Below, in pieces: positions 859-40,868 of a DNA stretch of 64,000 bases. This DNA comes from Candidatus Nitrosotenuis cloacae (lineage in GTDB: Archaea > Thermoproteota > Nitrososphaeria > Nitrososphaerales > Nitrosopumilaceae): NCBI RefSeq assembly GCF_000955905.1, contig NZ_CP011097.1, positions 383,957 through 447,956 on the forward strand. Direction: 5' to 3'. How positions within the stretch are numbered: position 1 is the stretch's first letter; each line of letters opens with the position of its first letter. Under the pieces are notes generated by a model. That model had not been told where the DNA came from, searched no databases, and saw nothing but the letters and a program-made list of their open reading frames with translations. The translations under genes were made by a program, and so were the position numbers.

Positions 859-934
859 AGCCCAGACTTGATTCCTATAGGATAAAGTCGTTTCTCTAAG
901 TCAATATAATAAAATGAAAAGAGAGGGTGTTGGT

Positions 935-1501
935 TTAGATTACTTGCCAGGGGCGAGTTGCAAATGTGATTACATATCCAACGCCAATAATGATTGATTG
1001 GTACATGATGTTGGTATATGGAATTGGTTTGAGTATTGGCTCGCCAGTTACTACTACTGTTTGTCCTGGGCCTAATCCTGGTCCAACTTGCGCAACGTTT
1101 AGCTGAGTGTGTACGTGGTATACGCCTGGCTCTAGTGCCTTTGCTCGAATTTCATAATCGAGTACTGCGTTACCTGGGATTTGAAAGACGTTTCCTGGTG
1201 GGGTTCTTGCAAGAATTTCCCATCTGTTACCTGCGTTGGTGGACTCTGAGAATATAGAGTTCCATCCTCTGAGGTCTCTTTCAACAAGACTTACGAACTT
1301 GCCTGATAAGACTAGTTCTTCACCGGTTTGCAGTGATTGTCTGTTGAAAGACTCATCTTCAATCTTTACGAAACGACTCTGGAGTTGTGCTTGAACACCG
1401 TGTGCTTCTGCAGTCTGGACCATTTGGGCCAAGTTTGGACCGAATGTGCCGAGTGCTAAAATCACTCCGAGTGCTACTACGAATACTTTCTTGTCGACCA
1501 T
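935..1501 (-). CDS. amoB: ammonia monooxygenase subunit B (archaeal)
   Basis: AmoB is the mostly extracytoplasmic subunit of the copper membrane monooxygenase that oxidises ammonia to hydroxylamine. The 188-residue product has an N-terminal hydrophobic segment (about residues 5-25) directly followed by AEAHGVQAQ. In this family, the His after the signal region is a copper ligand. A cupredoxin-like domain follows, with a HVHTQ motif near residue 130 and a C-terminal membrane segment at about 168-185. It is much shorter than bacterial AmoB/PmoB because it lacks the second cupredoxin domain, as is normal for archaea. It is divergent from amoC across a 280-bp region. A TATA-like ACATATATC lies about 40 nt upstream, so it may have a short 5' leader. 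Confidence 0.96.
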   Translation of the reverse strand: MVDKKVFVVALGVILALGTFGPNLAQMVQTAEAHGVQAQLQSRFVKIEDESFNRQSLQTGEELVLSGKFVSLVERDLRGWNSIFSESTNAGNRWEILARTPPGNVFQIPGNAVLDYEIRAKALEPGVYHVHTQLNVAQVGPGLGPGQTVVVTGEPILKPIPYTNIMYQSIIIGVGYVITFATRPWQVI

Positions 1502-1781
1502 AGTTATCCCGTTAATTAATCATCGACCTACATAGAATGATATATGTTTTACCGTTTTAATCAGTAGTGAAACTTAAAACCGCACGCACAAATTTTGATC
1601 TAATAGCTCAACATCAATGTTGAACATAGAAACCGACACTTTTCTCAACTGTAAAATCTCATATTCTAATATGATTATGCAAATTTTATAGGATTTTTAG
1701 ATGTATTTTTTATAATTATTTCAAGAAATTTTGCTGAAAATAAACTCATGTTTTATATATTCAAATTCTCCATGTGGTATC
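1502..1781. promoter_or_regulatory. divergent amoB / amoC control region
   Basis: This 280-bp AT-rich region separates the divergently transcribed amoB and amoC genes and holds no convincing gene. On the + strand a strong TATA box (TTTTATATATT, 1751-1761) sits about 26 nt before the amoC ATG, which implies a leaderless or nearly leaderless amoC transcript. On the - strand a TATA-like element lies near 1540-1550 for amoB. A short inverted sequence, CAACATCAATGTTG, is at 1609-1622 and could be a regulator site. No direct evidence of binding can be seen from sequence alone. Confidence 0.6.
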
Positions 1782-2345
1782 ATGGCACAGATGCCGGCAT
1801 TAATCCCAAAAGAAGTTGAGATCCAGAGACTAAAGAAAATCTGGCTCATCGTTATTGCAATGGGATCCACAGCAGCATCCGTGGAAGTAGATAACTTCGT
1901 AGATGGTTCCTTACATCAAACCTCTATCAGAGACTCTGCATTCACACCAGCACACTGGTGGCTTTACTCTCACTTTGTGGCACTACCACTAGGTTGGGGT
2001 TCAGTTGCAATCTATGATAGAAAGGTCCCAGTACTCAGAGGTCCAAACAACTCCATGAACACAGGTCTAAAGATGACCATTCTAGGTTACCTAGCAACCA
2101 TGTTCACAATCGGAGTCAATGAAATGTGGCACTTCTGGTTCGTAGAGGAGATCTTCGCAGTTCCAAACCACTGGATGTTTAACATGGGTGTAGTTGTAGC
2201 ATTCATGGGTGCACTTGCATATGTCGTAAGAGTATACGCAAGACTTGTCGAACTAGGTGCAGAAACACCAGGTGAGAACCCATATGTTGCAGAAATGTAC
2301 AAGATGGCTCTAGAGGGCAAACTGTACAGCAGAGCAATCCCATAA
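1782..2345 (+). CDS. amoC: ammonia monooxygenase subunit C (archaeal)
   Basis: AmoC is an integral membrane subunit of archaeal ammonia monooxygenase and carries a proposed metal site. An in-frame TTG lies further upstream at 1731, but I chose the ATG at 1782. The product from there is 187 residues starting MAQMPAL, and a TATA box lies 26 nt upstream. Several membrane segments are visible. Conserved features include the D-N-F-V-D run near residue 40, the HWWLYSH segment near 65-70 and the HFWFVEE segment near 126, which hold likely metal-binding Asp/His residues. The following amoX and amoA are on the same strand, each with its own TATA-like element. Confidence 0.97.
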   Translation: MAQMPALIPKEVEIQRLKKIWLIVIAMGSTAASVEVDNFVDGSLHQTSIRDSAFTPAHWWLYSHFVALPLGWGSVAIYDRKVPVLRGPNNSMNTGLKMTILGYLATMFTIGVNEMWHFWFVEEIFAVPNHWMFNMGVVVAFMGALAYVVRVYARLVELGAETPGENPYVAEMYKMALEGKLYSRAIP

Positions 2346-39276: not shown

Positions 39277-39576
39277 GTGGATAGAATAAAGAGACTTTCA
39301 ATGGAGGTTCTCGACCAACATAAAGACAAATTCACAATTAGTTTTGCAGATAACAAAAAGCTTCTAGATCAACTGGCTGTTGTGCGCTCAAAGGGGCTAA
39401 AAAATGAGATGGCAGGCTACATTACAAAACTAATCAAGCGCGAACAGGACACAATCGAGTCCAAGGAATCTGATGTGGAAGAGGAAGAAATCGAGGCAGA
39501 AGTAGAAGTCAAAGAAACCCAAGAAGCCGAGGTCCCACAAGAAATAACCATAGAGTCCAGCGAAGAAACTAACTAA
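39277..39576 (+). CDS. rps17e: 30S ribosomal protein S17e with acidic C-terminal extension
   Basis: The first 62 residues match eS17 (RIKRLSMEVLDQHKDKF, RSKGLKNEMAGYITKLIKRE). A Glu-rich tail of about 37 residues follows, with no basic residues after residue 71 except one Lys. Normal archaeal eS17 ends soon after the KLIKRE region, so the tail is an unusual addition for an RNA-binding protein. The GTG at 39277 is the start. It is 11 bp upstream of the ubiquitin-like/Cgi121 gene and likely co-transcribed with it. Confidence 0.92.
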   Translation: MDRIKRLSMEVLDQHKDKFTISFADNKKLLDQLAVVRSKGLKNEMAGYITKLIKREQDTIESKESDVEEEEIEAEVEVKETQEAEVPQEITIESSEETN

Positions 39577-39587
39577 ATAATTCTAAA

Positions 39588-40358
39588 TTGATTGTAATCA
39601 AGCTTTTAGGCGGAGCAAAAAAATCCTTTGGTAAAGACATAATTCAGACAGATCATGATGGTGTAACAATTTCACAATTACTGGAATATCTTTTGTCAAT
39701 CAAGCCGGCAGACACCATCACACTGGACACAAAAAATCTCCTAATTGCTGTAAATGGAGCGGACTCGTCTGCTTTGTCTGGACATGATACTGTTATACAT
39801 TCTGGCGATGTTGTAAGCATAATTCCTGTGATTCATGGGGGTGCAAGATCACAACTAAAGATCGGCTCTATTCATGTCGAGTTGTTTGATGTTCGGAATC
39901 AAAAAGGGAAAAACTATCAATTCTTGGATCACACCAGATCAAAATTCCCAAGTCTTGTGCTTACTGGGTTATCGTCCAAAAGCCTGGCAAGCGTATCTCA
40001 TGCAAAAAAGATAGTTTCACTATCATTGTATGCAAAAAAACATGGGCTGCTGCTCTCAAAAAAGCTTGAAACCGACATTTTGCTAAGATTTGCGGCAACT
40101 ACTCAGATCTCAGATGCAATCAAAAGTCTGGGAATTGAGCAGCAAAATGAATTTATCATAATAGCAATTGGCAAAAAATCATCACTGGATAAATTGTACC
40201 GTTCCATTACGCCAAATCTGACATTAATCGATTATGCCTCAAACATTATTCCAATCAAAAAACGATTCAAGATATCACAAAAATATCTGTCTGCAGTGGA
40301 TTCTGAATTTCCACTGGAAGACATTCTGGCAGAAAAGGCAGCAATCCTAGTCCAGTGA
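39588..40358 (+). CDS. fusion: ubiquitin-like (MoaD/ThiS) domain plus KEOPS subunit Cgi121
   Basis: The 256-residue protein joins two domains. Residues 1-86 form a beta-grasp MoaD/ThiS-like domain: a first strand MIVIKLLGGA, NLLIAVNGAD, then HSGDVVSIIPVIHGG, with Gly-84/Gly-85 where the C-terminal GG of a free sulfur carrier would be. Residues about 93-256 match Cgi121: HAKKIVSLSLYAKK, then LETDILLRFAATTQISDAI and KSLGI, ending LEDILAEKAAILV. Cgi121 is the tRNA-binding subunit of KEOPS, which makes t6A37. TTG 39588 is the start, just after rps17e. The fusion could be cleaved after GG, or the domain may be only a scaffold. Confidence 0.82.
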   Translation: MIVIKLLGGAKKSFGKDIIQTDHDGVTISQLLEYLLSIKPADTITLDTKNLLIAVNGADSSALSGHDTVIHSGDVVSIIPVIHGGARSQLKIGSIHVELFDVRNQKGKNYQFLDHTRSKFPSLVLTGLSSKSLASVSHAKKIVSLSLYAKKHGLLLSKKLETDILLRFAATTQISDAIKSLGIEQQNEFIIIAIGKKSSLDKLYRSITPNLTLIDYASNIIPIKKRFKISQKYLSAVDSEFPLEDILAEKAAILVQ

Positions 40359-40868
40359 ACCGCGTTTTTCTCGCTCTACGCTGAGAATATCGGAATCTTT
40401 GAGCACAGAAACGCCAGTAATTGCGCCTAAAATCTCTACTAGTACTATCCAATCGTATTTTTCGAGTGAGACCTTGTTTGGTATGCCGTTTGCAATTTGA
40501 GTTATTATCTCACCAGACGAAATATTCGAGTTTCTTTTCTCTATTGTGATTCGATATGTGTCATCTTGGTGTAGTGTTTTTGCTTGCTTTATTGCGGCCT
40601 CTGTGATCTGTGTTATGTCTGTTTTTGTTATATCGTACATTGGGATTGCCCTTGATGTGTAGCGAATCTCCCATGGCTCGTCTTCCAGTTTCTGTCGGAT
40701 TTTTTTTATCACATCTAGCGGGTTGACAGTTGTACTAACGGAAAGAATTCCGGAAAACTCGGTAATTGTGATTTGTGGGCTTTGATCCCCACACTCTTGG
40801 ATTATGGTAGTGATCTCGCTTTTTGTATCGTCTTCAAAGTGTCTTGTACATGTAATGATAAGATTCAC
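40347..40868 (-). CDS. THUMP-domain protein (TAN1 / THUMPD1-like)
   Basis: The 173-residue protein contains a THUMP domain (about 70-165), with YRITIEKRNSNISSGEIIT and YDWIVLVEILGAITGVSVL as hallmark strands. It resembles archaeal Tan1-like proteins that bind tRNA and assist N4-acetylcytidine formation. The N-terminal half (ITCTRHFEDDTKSEI) is a ferredoxin-like extension. Its 3' end overlaps the convergent Cgi121 fusion gene by 12 bp, placing two tRNA-modification genes back to back. Confidence 0.88.
   Translation of the reverse strand: MNLIITCTRHFEDDTKSEITTIIQECGDQSPQITITEFSGILSVSTTVNPLDVIKKIRQKLEDEPWEIRYTSRAIPMYDITKTDITQITEAAIKQAKTLHQDDTYRITIEKRNSNISSGEIITQIANGIPNKVSLEKYDWIVLVEILGAITGVSVLKDSDILSVEREKRGSLD

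Follow-up and report, generated by a model that had tools for sequence, protein, structure and literature searches.

An internal Gly-Gly between a ubiquitin-like domain and the KEOPS subunit Cgi121 in Candidatus Nitrosotenuis cloacae: a predicted precursor cleavage site

Introduction

In the ThiS-type superfamily, adenylation requires the exposed C-terminal glycine of the ubiquitin-like (Ubl) protein, with its carboxyl group free. A gene of Candidatus Nitrosotenuis cloacae (family Nitrosopumilaceae), found within the 64,000-nucleotide stretch analysed here (the window; NZ_CP011097.1, positions 383,957 to 447,956), encodes a domain of this kind in which the Gly-Gly end is continued directly into Cgi121, a subunit of KEOPS. 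The question raised by this locus is what a Gly-Gly end does in the middle of a chain.

The first-pass annotation of the locus offered three options, namely a precursor cut after the Gly-Gly, a tether of the Ubl to KEOPS, and a fixed scaffold. The evidence presented below clearly favours the first of these, while the novelty that the annotation implied is not supported by the literature. Both the Ubl-Cgi121 fusion and its linkage to S17e are already known, having been published in 2010 (PMC2948915). In that paper, as far as its accessible part goes, Makarova and Koonin describe the fusion as conserved throughout the thaumarchaeal genomes sequenced by that time and apparently co-transcribed with S17, and propose SAMPylation of KEOPS or a coordinated function (PMC2948915). 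No experimental follow-up of the fusion was found in the open-licence literature, and subscription papers may exist.

The fusion gene and its neighbours

The fusion gene is a single open frame on the plus strand (39588-40358) with a TTG start, 256 codons for amino acids, and no internal stop. Matches to it occur in 186 of the 200 family genomes searched, covering all 22 genera, and in 117 of the 119 that are of good quality; among the matches listed, nearly all family orthologs are an end-to-end single open frame. The first-pass annotation had called for a survey of the same fusion and had considered that a frame error could have joined two separate genes. The recurrence of the full-length frame in all 22 genera rules out both a frame error and an assembly artefact.

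Upstream, on the same strand, lies the gene of ribosomal protein S17e (39277-39576, plus strand; Pfam Ribosomal_S17e, 2.2e-15), which ends 11 bases before the fusion gene. Downstream, a THUMP-domain protein is encoded on the minus strand (40347-40868; Pfam THUMP, 1.3e-7), converging on the fusion gene and overlapping its 3' end by 12 bases (40347-40358). S17e is found in 148 of 154 family loci, and the THUMP gene in all 154. Both neighbours named in the first-pass annotation are therefore real, but the THUMP gene, being convergent and on the opposite strand, falls outside the operon of the fusion gene. The S17e protein of the window carries a long and acidic C-terminal tail, and the median length of S17e is ~111 residues across the family versus 77 in deeper relatives.

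Domain structure of the protein

The N-terminal part, residues 1-85 (39588-39842, plus strand), is an Urm1/SAMP-like beta-grasp domain of the ThiS/MoaD superfamily. Residues 6-85 match Pfam ThiS (1.8e-10, 41.6 bits, cut-off 22.5), the AlphaFold2 model shows the beta-grasp fold, and the Foldseek search with this part retrieves Urm1 (2k9x, 3.4e-4), with SAMP1 and MoaD also matched. Residues 86-256 and the stop codon (39843-40358, plus strand) make up the Cgi121 domain, which scores above the cut-offs of both Pfam CGI-121 (residues 130-233; 1.4e-7, 32.1 bits, cut-off 25) and NCBIfam NF011465 (1.8e-31, 109.4 bits, cut-off 40). Its fold is that of Cgi121, as judged by the Foldseek matches to 4ww5 (2.0e-8) and to the tRNA-bound Cgi121 7kjt (1.1e-7). 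As a Cgi121 it would be expected to bind Bud32 and the 3' end of tRNA. The succession of a MoaD/ThiS-type beta-grasp domain and Cgi121 in one frame, as first read from the letters, is thus borne out by the profile searches and the structure prediction that had been suggested for both halves.

At the level of strict equivalogs the Ubl domain stays under the thresholds, with 23.7 bits against a cut-off of 70 for the NCBIfam Urm1-like model and 17.7 bits against a cut-off of 60 for SAMP1, so homology does not fix its pathway. It may be called Urm1-like by its fold and its HGG end only.

The AlphaFold2 model of the whole fusion, built on 45 orthologs, has a mean pLDDT of 91.1. The sole segment with pLDDT below 50 is the His-Gly-Gly of residues 83-85, which lies between the two folded domains.

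Conservation of the Gly-Gly junction

The H83-G84-G85 motif is encoded at 39834-39842 (plus strand), in agreement with the first-pass placement of the Gly-Gly at residues 84-85. As is usual for domains of the ThiS/MoaD/Urm1 type, it forms the C-terminal end of the domain, here internal in the primary translation product. All three residues are invariant in 117 distinct fused proteins of the family, in which only 15 of the 256 columns do not vary (these include G8, N56, D74, P80, and the HGG itself). The residue at position 86 is mostly Ser or Ala in the same sequences, and past the motif the linker, A-R-S-Q-L in the window (39843-39857, plus strand), differs among orthologs in both sequence and length, according to the entropy and length counts. 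A small residue following a conserved junction Gly-Gly is the pattern of precursors of the MoaX and pro-SAMP type. Together with the low pLDDT of the motif and the ends of the free Ubl proteins in relatives (see below), its invariance points to a cleavage site after G85. An internal start that would yield a separate Cgi121 was considered and is not general, as an in-frame ATG occurs within 27 codons after the Gly-Gly in 30 of 117 sequences (ATG only; GTG and TTG were left uncounted).

When the set of fused proteins is widened, a single departure from HGG is observed, the HCS of genome G339 (locus L040, family f13). Neither an E1 nor a JAMM protein was detected in this draft genome (82% complete). 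With its small draft genome, G339 is a candidate for a natural loss of the pathway.

Separate genes and repeated fusion in relatives

Elsewhere in the order and class, 74 genomes of other families have one gene for the Ubl and another for Cgi121, the two being mostly adjacent or overlapping, which reveals the gene pair from which the fusion derives. The idea that the fusion is universal across the class is ruled out, since most of the other families have separate genes. The free Ubl ends with HGG immediately before the stop codon or carries a short tail, for example HGGMVGV, HGGCL, or HGGAQ. In the f3 genus g24 (loci L054, L297, and L310, for example) it is encoded away from Cgi121 and ends exactly at HGG. 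In several genomes of this genus the Cgi121 match is located elsewhere in the genome. All these genome lists are samples, and draft genomes can miss genes.

The fused arrangement occurs in families f1, f13, and f22, in part of the f3 genus g28, and in two genera of f20, with the Gly-Gly kept in those of f1, g28, the two f20 genera, and f22. Within g28, some species have the fused gene and others the split pair. In G346 (family f15; locus L049, frame 1474-2331, plus strand), a phosphoribosyltransferase takes the place of Cgi121 as the fusion partner, HGG being followed by Thr, and Cgi121 is the next gene; in G209 (family f16; locus L067), a phosphoribosyltransferase gene stands between the free Ubl and Cgi121. 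These two cases indicate that the Ubl was fused to whichever gene stood downstream, with retention of the Gly-Gly. Fusion appears to have arisen several times, once to the phosphoribosyltransferase, the origins being judged by family and genus membership and not from a dated tree.

The reverse event is apparent in G034 (locus L016), from the genus of the window, in which a TGA codon directly follows HGGA and is succeeded by a TTG codon and an intact Cgi121 frame. This looks like a natural fission at the predicted cut, although it is a single case in which a base-call error is possible.

Ubl, E1, and NcsA proteins of the family

Exactly two ThiS-family Ubl domains are found in each of the 17 family genomes tested, that of the window included, and both lie inside long fused frames, one with Cgi121 and the other with an E1 as the partner (the census used one Pfam family, so the counts cover the ThiS family only and other types of Ubl are possible). 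The genome of the window encodes one MoeB/ThiF-type E1, the partner enzyme that the first-pass annotation had proposed to look for. This E1 (G000:C1:1337376-1338698; locus L171, frame 877-2199, minus strand) itself begins with a MoaD/SAMP1-like Ubl domain, which has a conserved internal AGG with Ser or Ala after it. Ubl-E1 fusions in general retain the Gly-Gly at the junction, with Ser or Ala mostly as the next residue. Because no ThiS-family Ubl is free-standing and adenylation needs a free glycine carboxyl, activation is expected only if the fusions are cut.

An NcsA-type tRNA thiolase is encoded in the genome as well. As a discriminating partner it proved uninformative, because all 35 genomes tested have one. 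NcsA is present even in G205, a genome with no ThiS-family Ubl match at all, which makes the link between NcsA and the Ubl weak.

JAMM proteases

The genome of the window encodes two JAMM proteins, JAMM1 (a frame of 136 residues in locus L173) and JAMM2 (locus L172), in both of which the HSHP..S..D motif is intact, so that candidate proteases occur in the same genome as the predicted precursor. JAMM1 scores 76 bits with the desampylase model (below the cut-off of 130) and also matches PfJAMM1, while JAMM2 matches AfJAMM. The two belong to separate clades, the assignment being made by score and checked with a tree of about thirty sequences.

The distribution of JAMM1 largely follows that of Ubl proteins extended beyond the Gly-Gly, either by fusion or by a tail. 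Of the 47 genomes in which the Ubl is extended in this way, 44 have JAMM1; the three without a match are G339, in which the Gly-Gly is lost, and the drafts G264 and G325 (91% and 84% completeness). Among genomes whose Ubl proteins end exactly at Gly-Gly, with no Ubl-E1 fusion among the matches listed, 14 of 45 have JAMM1 (Fisher p 2e-10 for the association, ignoring the relatedness of the genomes). The same pattern is seen within family f18, where G214, with a tailed Ubl, has JAMM1 and three genomes with exact ends are without it. A strict rule that JAMM1 occurs only with extended Ubl proteins was rejected because of the 14 exceptions. Some of these probably have Ubl-E1 fusions outside the matches listed, and the occurrence of JAMM1 where Ubl proteins end exactly at Gly-Gly implies that the enzyme has other work.

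A precursor cut after Gly85

The comparison of genomes makes it probable that the protein of the window is a Ubl precursor cut after Gly85. The internal Gly-Gly is invariant and the separate genes of relatives end at it, repeated fusions to different partners keep it, no free ThiS-family Ubl was found in the family genomes tested, and a JAMM protease almost always accompanies extended Ubl proteins. The enzyme that cuts the fusion is most likely the desampylase-like JAMM1.

Following this reading, the chain would be translated and then cut after Gly85 by JAMM1, encoded elsewhere in the genome, which would expose the Gly-Gly carboxyl end of the Urm1/SAMP-like Ubl. The freed Cgi121, starting at Ala86, would join KEOPS, and the only MoeB/ThiF-type E1 of the genome, which is likewise synthesised with a Ubl domain attached, would adenylate the freed Ubl. 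The activated Ubl could then carry sulfur for the 2-thiolation of tRNA (with an enzyme of the NcsA/TtuA type), modify proteins, or do both, roles that are suggested by the Urm1-like fold and the HGG end. In this manner the fusion would link production of the Ubl to production of a subunit that serves tRNA modification. It is the cleavage, the protease, the activation, and the target pathway that we infer here.

A related reading, which overlaps with the precursor and which we consider rather unlikely in its own right, is a regulated switch in which both forms matter. Here the uncut form would deliver the Ubl to KEOPS or keep KEOPS blocked, and the cut would activate KEOPS and the Ubl together. 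There is a precedent in Haloferax, in which linkage of SAMP1 to MoaE inhibits MPT synthase and JAMM cleavage reactivates it (PMC4443979), and joint conservation throughout a family could reflect regulation. However, relatives with separate genes need no such switch, and the apparent fission in G034 abolished it within the same genus. Still less probable is a fixed scaffold, where the fusion stays uncut, the Ubl acts as a permanent KEOPS domain for docking partners, and the Gly-Gly is a flexible hinge. Every genus of the family does keep the two domains joined, with conserved S17e-Ubl-Cgi121 synteny, and one Foldseek match, the MoaD-related 1v8c of T. thermophilus, is a longer chain of 165 residues with a MoaD-like domain. 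A hinge, though, needs no exact H-G-G in 117 distinct sequences beside a freely varying linker, nor would a KEOPS scaffold explain why the Gly-Gly persists with a phosphoribosyltransferase or an E1 as the partner and why relatives have separate genes. Finally, a passive fusion by loss of a stop codon, with the Ubl domain disused and merely still attached, would fit the repeated joining to whatever gene lies downstream but is very improbable given the strong conservation of that domain, with its invariant G8, N56, D74, P80, and HGG.

The precursor reading can be extended, tentatively, to the whole of the Nitrosopumilaceae. It is possible, though less likely than not, that both ThiS-family Ubl proteins are never made free in this family (one arising fused to a KEOPS subunit, the other to their E1), that the JAMM cut is an obligatory gate tying Ubl supply and activation to the production of the t6A machinery, and that the uncut form may couple t6A37 formation with 2-thiolation on the same tRNA.

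The fusion has been without a mechanism since 2010, and the comparison provides a prediction of one bond, one candidate protease, and two products. If it holds, a very abundant archaeal group obtains its ThiS-family Ubl proteins solely by precursor processing, like eukaryotic ubiquitin, and couples their supply to tRNA modification. The retention of JAMM proteins in compact genomes in which no free ThiS-family Ubl was found would then also be explained. Annotation as 'Cgi121' or 'ThiF' hides these Ubl domains.

Comparison with known systems

Eukaryotic ubiquitin is made as an N-terminal fusion to ribosomal proteins, so that there, likewise, a Ubl is placed at the N-terminus of a protein of the translation apparatus. 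The Ubl family, the partners, and the proteases are different, and the resemblance is a functional analogy and not a homology of the fusions. To Urm1 the domain of the window is linked by structure and sequence matches and by the shared HGG end, but it scores under the Urm1-like cut-off and is not free-standing.

The fused MoaD-MoaE protein MoaX of Mycobacterium tuberculosis is cut between Gly82 and Ser83, which is required for its activity (PMC4326299). Like the fusion described here, it has an N-terminal ThiS/MoaD Ubl and an internal Gly-Gly with a small residue after it; unlike here, the partner is MoaE, the Ubl's own enzyme partner, and not a KEOPS subunit (PMC4326299). The protease is not named in that work.

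In archaea, HvJAMM1 cuts a SAMP1-MoaE fusion after the Gly-Gly in vivo, and deletion of the Gly-Gly abolished detectable cutting in the assay used (PMC4443979); the diglycine was not required in earlier in-vitro work, according to a later citing paper (PMC8832034). CsJAMM processes the SAMP precursors of Caldiarchaeum (PMC6043591). Archaeal JAMM proteins thus cut precursors of Ubl proteins after Gly-Gly (PMC4443979; CsJAMM and CsRpn11, PMC6043591), and the window's genome has a homologous JAMM1. Those studies used short precursors or a fusion made by engineering as substrates, whereas in the window a complete protein follows the Gly-Gly.

Set against the original description of the fusion, again as far as the accessible part of that paper extends (PMC2948915), the present work adds the separate genes ending at Gly-Gly, the predicted precursor cleavage, the other fusion partners, and the tie to JAMM. 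Where that description covered all Thaumarchaea sequenced by then, the much larger sample used here places the fusion in family f1 and only some further lineages, and not in the whole class.
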